From Mesorhizobium erdmanii USDA 3471 (GTDB lineage Bacteria > Pseudomonadota > Alphaproteobacteria > Rhizobiales > Rhizobiaceae): a stretch of 64,000 nt of DNA. The notes beneath the pieces were generated by a model. It made no database searches. It was given only the letters and a program-made list of their open reading frames with translations, and had not been told where the DNA came from. The position numbers and the translations under genes are program-made. The stretch spans positions 1 to 64,000 of the forward strand of contig NZ_KI421455.1 in NCBI RefSeq assembly GCF_000472705.1. Reading direction: 5' to 3'. This document shows, piece by piece, positions 7,813 to 50,790 of the stretch (position 1 is the stretch's first letter; the number at the start of each line of letters is the position of its first letter).

Positions 7813-10095
7813 ATGGCGAACCGCAGAGACAGTCGCATCGAGCCCAGTTTCGAGGGACCGCCACAGGCGCGATCCGAGGCGGGTCTTTCGGTGAGCGAGG
7901 AGGACCGCGTCGTGCCGAGCAACCGCAAAGTCTCCGCCAAACGCAAATCGTCGAAGGCGAAATCGTCGCGCGGCGGACGCGGCAGAAGCCGGCGCGGCCT
8001 GTTCGGCCTGCTCGGCCGGCTGTTCTACTGGTGCTTCGTGCTCGCCATCTGGGGCGGCATCGCCGTGGCTGGCGTCGTCGTCTATTACGGCGCCAAGATG
8101 CCGGCGGCCACCACCTGGTCGATCCCCGACCGCGCCCCCAACATAAAGATCGTTTCGGTCGATGGCCAGTTGCTCGCCAACAGGGGCACGAGCGGCGGCG
8201 AGGCCGTCGGCCTGCACGAAATGTCGCCCTATATTCCGGAAGCCGTCATCGCCATCGAGGACCGCCGGTTCTATTCGCATTTCGGTGTCGATCCGATCGG
8301 CCTGTCGCGCGCCATGGTGACCAACCTGCTCGGCGGGCATTTCTCGCAAGGCGGTTCGACGCTGACGCAGCAATTGGCCAAGAACCTGTTCCTGAAGCCC
8401 GACCGCACGCTGGAGCGCAAGGTGCAGGAGGTGCTTCTGGCGCTGTGGCTGGAGCACAAGCACACCAAGGACCAGATCCTCGAAATGTACCTCAACCGGG
8501 TCTATTTCGGCTCCGGCGCCTACGGCGTCGAGGCGGCTTCGCGGCGCTATTTCGGCAAGAGCGCGCGCGATGTCACGCTGTCGGAGGCCGCCCTGCTTGC
8601 CGGCCTGTTGAAGGCGCCATCGAAATTGTCGCCGGCCCGTGATCCGAAAGCCGCCGAAGAGCGCTCGCAACTCGTGCTCGCCGCCATGCGCGAGGAGGGC
8701 AAGATCAGCGACAAGGAGCTGAAGACGGCGCTCAGCGCGCCGGCGACGCGCGCGCCGTCCTACTGGACCGGCTCGGAAAACTACGTCGCCGACACCATCA
8801 TGGAAGAACTGCCCGACCTGATCGGCGACGTGCGCGGCGACATCGTCATCGACTCGACCGTCGACCTGAATCTGCAGAAGCTCGCCGAGCAGTCGATCCG
8901 CCGGCTGATCGACGAGAGCGGCAAGAAGCTCAACGTCACCCAGGGCGCGCTGGTGTCGATCGACGATTCCGGCGCGGTGCGCGCCATGGTCGGCGGCTAC
9001 GACTATTCGACCAGCCAGTTCGACCGCGCCTCCGAGGCGCGCCGCCAGCCCGGCTCGGCGTTCAAGCCGTTCGTCTATATGGCGGCGCTCGAAGCCGGCC
9101 GCACGCCCGACAGCATCCGCAACGACGCGCCGATCAAGATCGGCAACTGGACGCCGGACAATTACGGCGGCAAGTATTTCGGCAAGGTGACGCTAGCGAC
9201 GGCGCTGGCAAAGTCGCTGAATTCGGTGGCGGCGCAACTGGCGATGGAAGTCGGGCCGAACGCCGTGGTCGAGGCGGCGCACCGCATGGGCATCCAGTCC
9301 GAATTGCAGGCCAACACCTCGATCGCGCTCGGCACCTCGGAAGTGACGCCGCTGGAACTGACCTCGGCCTATGTGCCGTTCGCCAATGGCGGCTACAAGC
9401 CCGACATCCATTTCATCCGCCGCATCACCTCGGCCGACGGCAAGGTGCTCTATGACAGCGGTGGCAGCGGCAGCGCGCCGCGCGTCGTCAAAACCGAGAT
9501 CGTCGGCATGATGAACTCGATGATGATGGGCACGGTCGAGTTCGGCTCGGCCAAGAAGGCGGCTTTTGCCTGGCCGTCGGCCGGCAAGACCGGCACGAGC
9601 CAGAATTCGCGCGATGCCTGGTTCGTCGGCTACACAGCCAATCTCACCACCGGCGTGTGGTTCGGCAATGATGATGGCACGGCGATGAAGAAGGTCACCG
9701 GCGGCGCGCTGCCGGCGCAGGCCTGGCACGAATTCATGGTCGCGGCACATGAGGGCGTACCCGTGCGGCCGCTGCCAGGCACCTGGAAATCGACGCCGGC
9801 CGACACGATCGTGCCCGACGACATACCCTCGGCCGACAACAACCAGCCGGCGCCGGTTCCGTCCGCGTCGGTTGGCCAGCAGGCTCCGGCGGCGCCGCGA
9901 GCCGCTCCCGTTGCTCAAGCGCCAACGCCGGTCCGCCCGGTGCGACCCGCCCAGACGGTCGATGCCGATGGTTTCGATATGCCGGCTGACAGTGGCACGA
10001 CCGCCTCGGTCGGGCATCCGGTGCCTCCGGGCAGTGTCGGCGGTCCGCTGAAGAAGAAGCAGACCTCGATCCTGGATATTCTGGGCGGCGGCTGA
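7813..10095 (+). CDS. Class A penicillin-binding protein (PBP1A-type)
   Basis: 760 aa bifunctional peptidoglycan glycosyltransferase/transpeptidase anchored in the inner membrane. A basic cytosolic tail (1-65) is followed by one membrane span (about 67-92). The GT51 domain has the catalytic EDRRFYSHFGVD (E149) and GGSTLTQQLAKN. The transpeptidase domain has SAFK (S415, K418), SLN (S468-N470) and KTGTS (K592). The C-terminus (about 660-750) is Pro/Ala-rich and probably disordered. It polymerises lipid II and cross-links the strands in the periplasm. It is monocistronic. Its length is within the usual range for the family. Confidence 0.95.
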   Translation: MANRRDSRIEPSFEGPPQARSEAGLSVSEEDRVVPSNRKVSAKRKSSKAKSSRGGRGRSRRGLFGLLGRLFYWCFVLAIWGGIAVAGVVVYYGAKMPAATTWSIPDRAPNIKIVSVDGQLLANRGTSGGEAVGLHEMSPYIPEAVIAIEDRRFYSHFGVDPIGLSRAMVTNLLGGHFSQGGSTLTQQLAKNLFLKPDRTLERKVQEVLLALWLEHKHTKDQILEMYLNRVYFGSGAYGVEAASRRYFGKSARDVTLSEAALLAGLLKAPSKLSPARDPKAAEERSQLVLAAMREEGKISDKELKTALSAPATRAPSYWTGSENYVADTIMEELPDLIGDVRGDIVIDSTVDLNLQKLAEQSIRRLIDESGKKLNVTQGALVSIDDSGAVRAMVGGYDYSTSQFDRASEARRQPGSAFKPFVYMAALEAGRTPDSIRNDAPIKIGNWTPDNYGGKYFGKVTLATALAKSLNSVAAQLAMEVGPNAVVEAAHRMGIQSELQANTSIALGTSEVTPLELTSAYVPFANGGYKPDIHFIRRITSADGKVLYDSGGSGSAPRVVKTEIVGMMNSMMMGTVEFGSAKKAAFAWPSAGKTGTSQNSRDAWFVGYTANLTTGVWFGNDDGTAMKKVTGGALPAQAWHEFMVAAHEGVPVRPLPGTWKSTPADTIVPDDIPSADNNQPAPVPSASVGQQAPAAPRAAPVAQAPTPVRPVRPAQTVDADGFDMPADSGTTASVGHPVPPGSVGGPLKKKQTSILDILGGG

Positions 10096-48958: not shown

Positions 48959-49441
48959 CTATTCGCATAGCACCGTGACCGTGCCCTGATAGGTGCCGGC
49001 AGGAAAGATGCCGCTCGACTTGGTGGCGGAGAGATCGACCTGCATGGAGTGGGTGCCGTTTGTGACCTTTTGCGGCACGCTTCCCGATATGTCGACCCCG
49101 GAGCCGTCGAGGCGGAAGACCGAGGCGAAGGTCACATTGGTGCCGCCGCCGCTCGGCGCGGACGAAAATGCGGCAGGCGCAGGCGCCGAAACCGAATAGC
49201 AGTCAAGCAAGTCGAACAAGGAACACAGCAGTGAGCTTGCCACGATGGTGGCGTTCGCACTCGATCCGCCTGCTTGTTTGGAGCCCAGTATACTGATGGC
49301 GGGATTTGCCTTCATCGTTCCCGATGTCCCGACCATGATGGTGCAGGTGCCGATAATCGCGGCCGGCGCTGGCTGGCAGAAGCCGGCCAGCGCCGCCACC
49401 GCAAGCAGCGCGCGGCTATTTCCTCTTCTTTTTCTTGCCAT
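48959..49441 (-). CDS. Spore coat protein U (SCPU) domain protein, second copy
   Basis: 160 aa from MARKRRGNSRALLAVAALAG, a Sec signal peptide ending near APA-A (27-28); GGAA lies 6 nt upstream. The SCPU fold opens with GTCTIMVGTSGTMKANPAI and ends SGIFPAGTYQGTVTVLCE, the canonical terminal strand. Two internal Cys (LLCSLFDLLDCYS) are additional. It is predicted to be a secreted pilin-like subunit. It overlaps the upstream KKKKRK gene by 26 bp. Confidence 0.85.
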   Translation of the reverse strand: MARKRRGNSRALLAVAALAGFCQPAPAAIIGTCTIMVGTSGTMKANPAISILGSKQAGGSSANATIVASSLLCSLFDLLDCYSVSAPAPAAFSSAPSGGGTNVTFASVFRLDGSGVDISGSVPQKVTNGTHSMQVDLSATKSSGIFPAGTYQGTVTVLCE

Positions 49442-49940
49442 TGGCATTTCCGGTTCTGAGGCTCCAGCCCTCATTGGCCCATCCGGGTGACGCGGTCGCG
49501 GCAGCGGCGGGAGCGGTGGCGGCCACGCTCCCGGTCTGGCCGTCGGCGCCGAGACCCATTTTGAGGAGTTTCAACTCCAACTGCAGGCGCTGGACCTCGA
49601 GTTCGTACAGGCGGCTGCAGTCGAGACGCTTCGGCGTACGTCCGATCGGGATCACCACCCGGCCATAGGTGGCGACGCCATTGTCCGTCTGGCCGTTACC
49701 CCTGATAACGCCGAGATCGACGTAGGCACCTGAACCGGAGACTGCGGAACGGCAAGTGGTGCCGTCCGCGGCATGCACCTCGTCCTGGCCTTGGGGCAAG
49801 GTGACACCGGGCAAATTGAACCCGTTCTCGTTCTGGTTGAGATTATAGATCTGGTCCTGCGCCTGGGTTGGAGCGGTGTTTGTCACAGCAACTGCAAGTG
49901 CCAGCGTCAGGACTTGCGATGCCCAAAAAACTTTCCGCAT
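49416..49940 (-). CDS. Secreted protein of the coat-U cluster, unknown function
   Basis: 174 aa. Signal peptide 1-28 (LTLALAVAVTNTAPTQA). The middle has Gly/Asn-rich segments (LNQNENGFNLPGV, VIRGNGQTDNG) and two Cys. A predicted coiled coil (LYELEVQRLQLELKLLKMG, about 111-129) is followed by an Ala/Thr-rich linker and a Lys-rich end (KKKKRK). I do not recognise the family. Position between a chaperone and a coat-U gene suggests a structural or assembly part of the same surface structure. Overlaps the next gene by 26 bp and the chaperone by 34 bp. Confidence 0.7.
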   Translation of the reverse strand: MRKVFWASQVLTLALAVAVTNTAPTQAQDQIYNLNQNENGFNLPGVTLPQGQDEVHAADGTTCRSAVSGSGAYVDLGVIRGNGQTDNGVATYGRVVIPIGRTPKRLDCSRLYELEVQRLQLELKLLKMGLGADGQTGSVAATAPAAAATASPGWANEGWSLRTGNANGKKKKRK

Positions 49941-50299
49941 ATCTGTGCCTTTATCTGCGTCTGTTGATTGGGGAAGGGGATGCTTTCGGTACAGATACGG
50001 ACTTTGCGCTCGACGGCGCCGCCGAAGGGGACGACCACGAGGACGGATCGGGAGGCCTGGGAGCCGAGTTGGAAGACACTCGGAGAGATCCTGGCGTCAA
50101 CCGGCTGAAAGTCCTGATCGTAGACGTGGATTTCGACCCTGATCTTCTGGTCGTAGGGATTGGCCGGGAAGACACGGACGGCGAAGACGTCGGTGAAACT
50201 GTTGATCTCGCCACGCATCGGCGACATCGACTGGGCGCCGGCGGCAATAGGCATCAGCGCCACGGCCATTGCCGTCGCCAAGGTTCGAACATGTGTCAA
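49907..50299 (-). CDS. Short PapD-like periplasmic chaperone (one domain)
   Basis: 130 aa with a TTG start (AAGGAGGGG 3-6 nt upstream), then the signal peptide LATAMAVALMPIAAGAQ. The body matches the N-terminal domain of pilus chaperones: DVFAVRVFPANPYDQKIRVE and VFQLGSQASRSVLVVVPFGG, with the R-x-C pattern VRICTESI at the end. The C-terminal immunoglobulin domain of normal chaperones (about 230 aa) is absent. It is 20 bp downstream of the first coat-U gene and overlaps the coiled-coil protein gene. Confidence 0.7.
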   Translation of the reverse strand: MTHVRTLATAMAVALMPIAAGAQSMSPMRGEINSFTDVFAVRVFPANPYDQKIRVEIHVYDQDFQPVDARISPSVFQLGSQASRSVLVVVPFGGAVERKVRICTESIPFPNQQTQIKAQICGKFFGHRKS

Positions 50300-50319
50300 G
50301 GACCCCTCCTTCCTGAGGG

Positions 50320-50790
50320 CTATTCGCAGCGCAGCGTCACCGTTGCCTGATAGTTTCCGTTCGAGAAGCGGTTGCTGCCGCTCTTGGTGCCGGCCAGATT
50401 GACCGAGACGAGATCGGCGCCGGGTGTGGTGATTGCGGTGGCCGAGCCTGTCTCCACGATCGAATGCGCGCCCGCGGCCGAATAGGTCGGTGTCCAGGTG
50501 GTCGACGTGGTGTCGGCCGACGGCACCGTCGTGGTGGTCACCGGATCGACGCTCAGCGACACGCCGCCGGTCGTCGTCAGAGTGACGGTTCCGGCCGAGC
50601 CGCCGCTGTTGTGGGAACTGAGGGACTGGAGATCGGGACTGACCGTCATCGTGCCATTGGTGGCGATGACAAGCGTGCAGGTCGGGCTGATTGTGCCATT
50701 GAAAATGACATTTTGCGTCGTGGCCGACGCGGCCTGGCCCATGCACGCGACCAGCAATGTTGCACCGATGGCGGTGCCGAACGACTTCAT
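50320..50790 (-). CDS. Spore coat protein U (SCPU) domain protein, first copy
   Basis: 156 aa. Signal peptide 1-23 (FGTAIGATLLVACMGQAASA). TISPTCTLVIATNGTMTVSPD is the donor/subunit start and SNGNYQATVTLRCE the C-terminal strand of the SCPU fold. The Thr/Ser-rich central loop (VTTTTVPSADTTSTTW) is unusual. AGGAGG lies 7 nt before the ATG. It heads a four-gene minus-strand operon that includes a chaperone but no usher. Confidence 0.87.
   Translation of the reverse strand: MKSFGTAIGATLLVACMGQAASATTQNVIFNGTISPTCTLVIATNGTMTVSPDLQSLSSHNSGGSAGTVTLTTTGGVSLSVDPVTTTTVPSADTTSTTWTPTYSAAGAHSIVETGSATAITTPGADLVSVNLAGTKSGSNRFSNGNYQATVTLRCE

Follow-up and report, generated by a model that had tools for sequence, protein, structure and literature searches.

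A conserved gene trio with a one-domain PapD-type chaperone and no linked usher in Mesorhizobium erdmanii, other proteobacteria and phages

Introduction

How pilin-like subunits might be assembled by a bacterium whose genome shows no usher is the question raised by a run of four minus-strand genes, F2a, F1, F0 and F2b, at positions 48959-50790 of a 64,000-nucleotide stretch of Mesorhizobium erdmanii USDA 3471 (assembly GCF_000472705.1, contig NZ_KI421455.1, positions 1 to 64,000; the whole stretch is referred to as the window). Donor-strand pili are generally held to need the usher as their gate. The original prediction, made from the sequence alone, described two secreted SCPU-domain proteins, a secreted coiled-coil protein with a Lys-rich end and a 130-residue chaperone, all encoded in one direction and with no usher, and suggested a reduced or new surface-assembly system. 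The core of the locus is a trio consisting of a pilin-like subunit (F2), a one-domain chaperone (F1) and F0, and the coiled-coil protein F0 is the constant partner of F1 in a trio that also occurs in gammaproteobacteria and phages. We propose that these genes form a conserved, functional chaperone-subunit system of the donor-strand type that works free of an usher, F0 replacing the usher as the outer-membrane base; we regard this proposal as evenly poised between right and wrong. The proposal draws on the lack of both an usher and the SCPU family PF05229 in the genome, on the constant partnership of F1 and F0, and on the PapD-like fold of F1 with its clamp residues; the polymerisation of F2 and the role of F0 are inferred.

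Genes of the locus

A ribokinase gene and an AdaA/Ogt-like gene flank the run, and the reading of open reading frames (ORFs) agrees with four genes in one direction:

F2a, 50320..50790, minus strand: secreted pilin-like subunit of 156 residues (from the ORF)
F1, 49907..50299, minus strand: secreted one-domain PapD-type chaperone of 127-130 residues (from the model and fold matches)
F0, 49416..49940, minus strand: secreted 174-residue protein with a Lys-rich end (from the ORF and the family alignment)
F2b, 48959..49441, minus strand: second secreted pilin-like subunit, 160 residues from the ATG at 49441 (from the ORF, which is open from 49474)

The F1 gene starts with a TTG preceded by a good ribosome-binding site, giving 130 residues, and an alternative GTG at 50290 gives 127. 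The start of F0 lies inside the end of F1, with an overlap of 34 nucleotides, and the start of F2b inside the end of F0, so that the genes look translationally coupled. By eye, a signal-peptide-like segment is present at the N-terminus of all four proteins. In all four genes, set against 19-20 Mesorhizobium loci, differences are 2.2-4.4 times as frequent at third codon positions as at positions 1 and 2; because of this excess, and because 86 intact relatives of F1 carry exactly two Cys in the mature protein, the locus is more than a chance arrangement. The four genes are real, intact, conserved and under purifying selection. In the public annotation of Mesorhizobium sp. B2-1-8 all four proteins are hypothetical.

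The one-domain chaperone F1

The AlphaFold model of F1, made with 59 aligned sequences, has a pLDDT of 90 and a predicted template modelling score (pTM) of 0.77. A Foldseek search of the PDB with this model gave 102 matches at E 0.001 or better, down to 1e-6, and every one of the best 50 of these 102 was a pilus chaperone or a complex thereof. Structural re-alignment gave Z scores of 11.0 for Caf1M, 10.9 for DraB, 10.6 for FimC, 10.5 for PapD and 9.8 for CsuC. In the chaperone matches it is the N-terminal domain throughout that is aligned, over 88-103 residues at Z 9-11, and the model fits Caf1M over 101 residues at 2.6 A. The earlier description of a 130-residue chaperone keeping only the N-terminal PapD domain is thus borne out by the model and the PDB matches.

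Residues 6-119 of FimC pair with residues 24-127 of the model, and from these end points of the alignment R26 of F1 should fall on R8 and K120 on K112, which we take to be the basic pair of PapD and FimC that clamps the subunit C-terminus. Among 86 rhizobial-type relatives the position of R26, which follows the motif SPM, is occupied by R in 84 and by K in the other two, and that of K120, two residues after the last Cys, is K or R in all 86; the two Cys of the mature protein, found in every one of them, are residues 100 and 118 in the window F1. All 86 extracted relatives are 121-145 residues long, which makes the missing second domain a family trait; a further relative (L047), outside the 86, extends about 40 residues beyond the usual end. 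Distant secreted single-domain relatives with 28-37% identity are also found outside the cassette of cassette-bearing genomes (L053 near 8209-8517, L056:8341-8784).

F1 matched nothing in Pfam, including PF00345 (PapD_N), or in NCBIfam, and none of 13 family members scanned matched PF00345; searches of Pfam, NCBIfam, PHROG and PDB sequences with F1, F2a and F2b gave nothing significant. Comparison of the F1 profile with profiles of usher-linked chaperones reached only P 4-7% and E 0.005-0.01. Since the structure comparison succeeded and the profile comparison failed, it is the fold and not the sequence that carries the chaperone claim. Unrelated Ig-like folds speak against a chaperone, as they align with F1 at Z 9.6, 9.5 and 8.8, the top one being 1.4 below the best chaperone. 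Together with the lack of a PapD_N match and the fact that single Ig-like domains are common, they would suit an F1 that is an Ig-like structural subunit sharing the fold and not a chaperone. This we consider quite improbable, given that pilus chaperones, aligned at their N domain, head the PDB matches and that the rhizobial family retains a basic residue at each clamp position. F1 has a PapD-type N-domain fold with both clamp positions basic, and a chaperoning function is well supported by the modelled fold and these residues.

Search for ushers

The usher family PF00577 had no match in the 7.02-Mb, 50-contig, 99.99%-complete assembly that contains the window; among 14 control genomes in this search only E. 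coli matched. The predicted absence of an usher therefore holds for the locus and for more distant parts of the genome as well. F1 was found in 26 of 199 genomes of the same family (24 of 186 good ones), representing 15 of the 109 genera sampled, with five weak second matches (26-33% identity) not counted as cassettes. An usher was found in 22 of the 199, the sample being the same, as indicated by the genome numbering. Both occur in two genomes (G021 and G040), on different contigs. Two of 26 is about the expectation from 22 of 199, and cassette and usher are therefore not associated; mutual exclusion of the two was considered as well and is ruled out by the same figures. The Pfam SCPU domain was present in 12 of 61 genomes, 11 of which are on the usher list. 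True SCPU proteins accompany ushers, whereas the F2-F1-F0 cassette does not.

A linked usher in relatives, which according to the original prediction would reduce this copy to a decayed remnant, was also looked for. A hidden Markov model (HMM) of 15 same-family ushers, which found two of two positive controls, detected none in 128 cassette loci, as a rule covering about 5 kb around the cassette and including several overlapping stretches of the same contig. One marginal match (E 0.02) was to an F0 protein itself. The loci of the 15 ushers (L142-L156) look like ordinary archaic clusters, and no match to F0, F1 or F2 was found in them at E 1e-3. Three of these archaic operons encode, besides a full usher, a chaperone of only about 141-146 residues (L146:3253-3678; L153, 142 residues; L155 near 3887), and the two of these short chaperones that were scanned both matched PF00345, at 2.6e-15 and 2.5e-16. 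One-domain chaperones may also work with an usher, and the one-domain trait alone is therefore not decisive against the chaperone-usher pathway.

Another possible explanation might be that F2 leaves the cell through an usher, or another outer-membrane protein, whose gene lies elsewhere. Klebsiella, a host of some of the phages described below, has ushers, and this would be in line with such an arrangement. We nevertheless hold it to be improbable, since PF00577 is absent from the window genome and from 24 of the 26 cassette genomes (the search covered this exporter family and no other kind) and since it is F0 that accompanies the F1-F2 pair instead.

Conservation of the cassette in Rhizobiales

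F0 was present at all 23 loci read around F1 in the 26 F1-bearing genomes, the other three being on short contigs or at contig ends; the gene order was often F2-F1-F0-F2 or F2-F1-F0-F2-F2. The cassette is doubled in two genomes (G123 and G040) and partly doubled in another (G136). Eight of the 23 loci have the same two chromosomal neighbours, and the others differ. With F0 as query, named genomes yielded at least 79 loci and 95 stretches encoding a relative. The loci listed belong mainly to Mesorhizobium, Aminobacter, Aureimonas, Nitratireductor, Chelativorans and related metagenome-assembled genomes, and the closest named relatives among those listed were found in Mesorhizobium, with up to 90% identity. 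F1 lies directly upstream of F0 and overlaps it by 31-94 nucleotides at 80 of 83 F0 genes, one of the three misses being at a contig end. As judged by a simple pattern, F2 is upstream in at least 75 and directly downstream in at least 40 of the 83 F0 loci. The cassette is not universal even in the genus, being present in five of nine same-genus genomes listed. On the Mesorhizobium plasmid pB2-1-8 a cassette (L167) is located near an EAL-domain gene.

Relatives in gammaproteobacteria, plasmids and phages

With the window F0 as query, 176 Vibrio phage records were found among 50,697, and separate searches of the phage records, one per gene, gave 179 for F1, 179 for F2 and 176 for F0. The phage F2, F1 and F0 genes adjoin. 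Their profiles, built from 12 phage loci of which many are closely related, matched rhizobial F2a, F1 and F0 at E 4e-17 (P 98.9), 4e-5 (122 columns, in register) and 1e-17, respectively, and wrong pairings within the phage and rhizobial trios reached E 0.0076 at best. In several phages the start of F0 is mis-annotated, and the upstream frame adds a signal-peptide-like stretch and overlaps F1 again. The Vibrio phages carrying the cassette are diverse, including the T5-like Thalassa and VPG01, the Queuovirinae phage pVco-14 and other phages of 59-84 kb. When viral models were searched by fold with F1, two small proteins came first (E 8e-5 and 3e-4), and a 100-residue protein of the cassette-bearing Vibrio phage Ceto appeared at rank 23.

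In the Vibrio phage loci read, the trio comes after one or two long genes, which look fibre-like by eye and gave no family match; three of four scanned belong to or touch phrog_10818, and the fourth belongs to another family of unknown function. Such long genes precede the trio in different Vibrio phages (L168:4747-8106, L169:3689-8085, L170:2118-7103), as if five genes moved as one module.

The F0 of phage Miami retrieved 177 records, 24 of them from phages of hosts other than Vibrio (Klebsiella 13, Serratia 6, Erwinia 3, Stenotrophomonas 1, Raoultella 1), and the trio was read in three of these 24, Miami, pEa_SNUABM_56 and Kp24. A scan of viral contigs with rhizobial F0 gave no relative; with phage F0 it gave five, one being a 23-residue fragment. 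The window F0 also matches two Vibrio nigripulchritudo plasmids. In a V. nigripulchritudo plasmid cassette (L166:6796-7584 and 8365-9087) the gene for an extra secreted protein of 262 residues separates F2 from F1, and an EAL-domain gene overlaps the F0 end.

In a sample of the phylum, 11 of 398 genomes had an F0 match, one of which (G837) was discarded as a fragment with two stops. Five non-rhizobial genomes were kept. In four of them (G871, G1091, G1108 and G1003) F1 adjoins F0 with F2 beside them, and in the fifth (G1017, L231) a shorter ORF takes the place of F1. The F0, the F2 and this ORF of G1017 all lack Cys where other cassettes have them, a joint absence that fits a joint function. 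G871 is labelled Vibrio-type because a flanking gene is common to Vibrio sp. THAF190c. The gammaproteobacterial loci contain one or two F2 genes.

Profiles of the gammaproteobacterial set, comprising chromosomes, plasmids, and jumbo and Erwinia phages, matched the rhizobial ones at E 7e-23 for F0, 9e-6 for F2 (151 columns) and 8e-5 for F1 (110 columns); G1017 was left out, its F1-place ORF being short and unlike the rest. For G1003, another alphaproteobacterium, the values were 1e-27 for F0, 3e-15 for F2 and 1e-8 for F1. Signal peptides alone, aligned over about 20 columns, brought several off-target pairs to E 3e-4 to 2e-3, and since the signal peptide is part of the F1 comparisons, their values of 4e-5 and 8e-5 are modest evidence. 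The match of F1 across groups is the weakest link, and the position next to F0, the size and the Cys pattern add support to it. F1 and F0 remain neighbours, with F2 alongside, in Rhizobiales and equally in gammaproteobacterial chromosomes, in plasmids and in phages.

This distribution bears on the suggestion that the system is reduced. A decayed remnant of a chaperone-usher cluster would account for the missing usher and the missing second chaperone domain, but it agrees poorly with the occurrence of F1 in 15 of the 109 genera sampled in the family, with a trio in phages, with the third-position excess, with the uniform one-domain length and with 128 loci free of a linked usher. Decay is thus very unlikely; the "new" half of the suggestion is supported and the "reduced" half is not.

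Pilin-like subunits F2

F2a carries an extension of 14-15 residues ahead of its first Cys, a candidate donor strand, and has Cys as its penultimate residue, whereas the mature part of F2b begins about five residues ahead of the first Cys, leaving no donor extension. The Mesorhizobium N-termini after cleavage are ..A/TTQNVIFNGTISPTCTL for F2a and ..A/AIIGTCTIM for F2b. In donor-strand pili the segment ahead of the first strand is the donor, and the two proteins therefore have the look of a polymerising subunit and of a tip or terminator, F2b being the candidate for the latter on the basis of its N-terminus. From the end of the hydrophobic signal core to the first Cys the median distance is 20 residues for 68 upstream subunits and 11 for 37 downstream ones, with a p value of 6e-9 that is optimistic because the sequences are related; the measurements cover the 105 subunits that a crude filter let through from 119 candidates.

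The original prediction called F2a and F2b secreted SCPU-domain proteins. The signal-peptide-like starts agree with secretion, but neither protein matched the Pfam SCPU family PF05229 at the curated cut-off, and no match was found elsewhere in the genome. Profile-profile comparison with true SCPU pilins gave P 58% and E 1e-4 with signal peptides included. For the mature parts, local alignment gave E 0.0066-0.026, with controls at 0.017-0.15, and so did not improve on the F2-versus-F1 control at 0.017, and global alignment gave E 7e-4 to 2e-3 at P 5-11%, with controls at 0.15-0.87. The SCPU name was not adopted, as the likeness fell once the signal peptides were cut off, and F2 is best described as pilin-like, with no further label.

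The third partner F0

The consensus of the F0 family contains LPGV.LPQG.DEVRAADGTTC and RLDC..LY.LE, and an alignment of 57 sequences has 27 invariant residues, including both Cys and, among others, D75, G77, Y92, R94, V96, P98, R105, C108, Y112, L114, E115, R118, L119 and E122. The AlphaFold model of F0 consists of an amphipathic beta-hairpin (73-80/89-96) and a helix (108-130). The predicted helix reads as a coiled coil, as had been proposed; the Lys-rich end is not a family feature, since the KKKK tail occurs in only three of 25 alignment rows, all of the same genus. In the hairpin, positions 74, 78, 95, 97 and 99 are nearly always V, L, I, M or A in the 57 rows and alternate with the invariant D75, G77, Y92, R94 and P98. 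In the model, this alternation resembles a membrane-facing pair of strands.

The F0 of a Vibrio plasmid matched the usher HMM at a stretch of barrel strands (E 0.02), and the phage F0 profile matched the same usher positions at E 0.41, which is a hint only at a likeness between F0 and the usher barrel; no homology of F0 to a known outer-membrane family was found. The matches of F0 in Pfam and PDB were all below threshold (DUF3551 over the signal region, E 0.0038). Among PHROG families the window F0 matched phrog_37374 at 4.8e-11 and phrog_29264 at 0.0026. F0 is the most easily recognised member of the trio across distant groups; within Rhizobiales, F1 is more conserved than F0 (mean column identity 56% versus 35%).

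Proposed mechanism

All four proteins would be exported by Sec. F1 would hold unfolded F2 by donor-strand complementation, using its G1 strand, and F2a units would then join through donor-strand exchange, F2b capping or tipping the fibre. F0 might oligomerise via its helix, the amphipathic hairpins together with a disulfide C63-C108 forming a small base or pore in the outer membrane that substitutes for the usher. When carried by a phage, the trio may work in the periplasm of the infected cell or at its surface, and one guess at its purpose is to mask receptors or exclude superinfection. Surface assembly as the function of the system is plausible.

Several observations weigh against this scheme. 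The F0 model is weak (pLDDT 63, pTM 0.32) and fold searches with it gave no match, although an obligate oligomer could look so in a model of modest confidence. Ser occupies position 76 in 15 of the 57 F0 rows, and I79 and V96 make the "polar" face of the hairpin partly hydrophobic; the hairpin could equally pack on the helix of F0 itself. The likeness of F2 to SCPU pilins is weak. In phage F1 the residue after PM is not basic in 10 of 12 rows, K near the last Cys being kept in all 12, and Miami F1 has D at the second clamp position. Gammaproteobacterial F1 matched phage F1 at E 6e-4, which does not surpass an off-target match of signal peptides at 3e-4.

A different explanation might be that F1 and F2 form a chaperone-subunit pair that makes no fibre: F1 would fold F2, and F2 with F0 would make a small complex in the periplasm or at the outer membrane, for instance for receptor masking, exclusion or protection of the envelope. 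The presence of the trio in phages of several kinds, after long fibre-like genes in the Vibrio phages read, suits a role in infection, and the absence of an export gate and the one or two F2 genes of gammaproteobacterial loci are consistent with it too. The donor-type extension, present in F2a and lacking in F2b, and the two or three F2 genes per cassette at many Rhizobiales loci fit a polymer better, and we rate a complex of this kind as a serious rival, with the balance against it.

The usher-free donor-strand proposal may also be put in a bolder form, which is doubtful at present: F2-F1-F0 might be a separate, minimal and horizontally spread pathway of secretion and assembly, in which Ig-like subunits pass from F1 to F0 hairpins that have assembled by themselves into an outer-membrane ring. 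Three genes of about 1.3 kb would then do the job of an 800-residue usher, and phages of several kinds would perhaps use the pathway to coat or re-tool the surface of the cell they infect or, at lysis, to equip the virion with sub-fibres. If F0 does stand in for the usher, one small protein in place of the usher and the second chaperone domain would show how little such assembly needs. The occurrence of the trio in phages, jumbo phages included, ties chaperoning of the pilus type to phage biology. It also offers a likely identity for three PHROG families and for many "hypothetical proteins"; Pfam names no member of the trio. The trio is small enough for testing in laboratory strains.

Comparison with known systems

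In the literature on usher-free systems and one-domain chaperones no earlier description of the trio, or of a phage-encoded link to pilus chaperones, was found, most subscription journals being outside the search. A term search of the available text of an overview of jumbo phages (PMC7824862) did not find "usher", "pilus" or "periplasm", and a text search of the main text of the paper on jumbo phage Kp24 (PMC9700779) found no mention of its trio genes gp141-gp143. The nearest published precedent found is the CccS/CccP pair of Synechocystis, as far as the text consulted describes it: an SCPU protein and a PapD_N protein encoded in an operon that has no usher, the usher being elsewhere in the genome (PMC4390875). 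It is similar in having a subunit and a chaperone domain paired with no usher in the operon, and differs in that the domains are recognised by Pfam, an usher is present in the genome and, in the text consulted, no F0 is mentioned (PMC4390875).

Among phage protein families, PHROG 25895, 25455 and 37374, from Vibrio phages, correspond to phage F2, F1 and F0, respectively, and all three are marked as of unknown function; the window F2b points weakly at phrog_25895 (E 0.12). Of the characterised chaperones, those of the FGL class such as Caf1M are the best fold match of F1, which differs from them in having one domain and no usher partner. The two conserved Cys of F1 are presumably placed like the F1-G1 strand disulfide of this class. 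The archaic (sigma) chaperone-usher pathway, for example Csu of Acinetobacter, is also alike in its PapD-type chaperone, CsuC being among the fold matches of F1. Csu subunits are likewise secreted; they bear a donor-type extension and have a Cys close to the N-terminus. Compared with this pathway, the F2-F1-F0 cassette has neither an usher nor a second chaperone domain, and it has an extra protein, F0.

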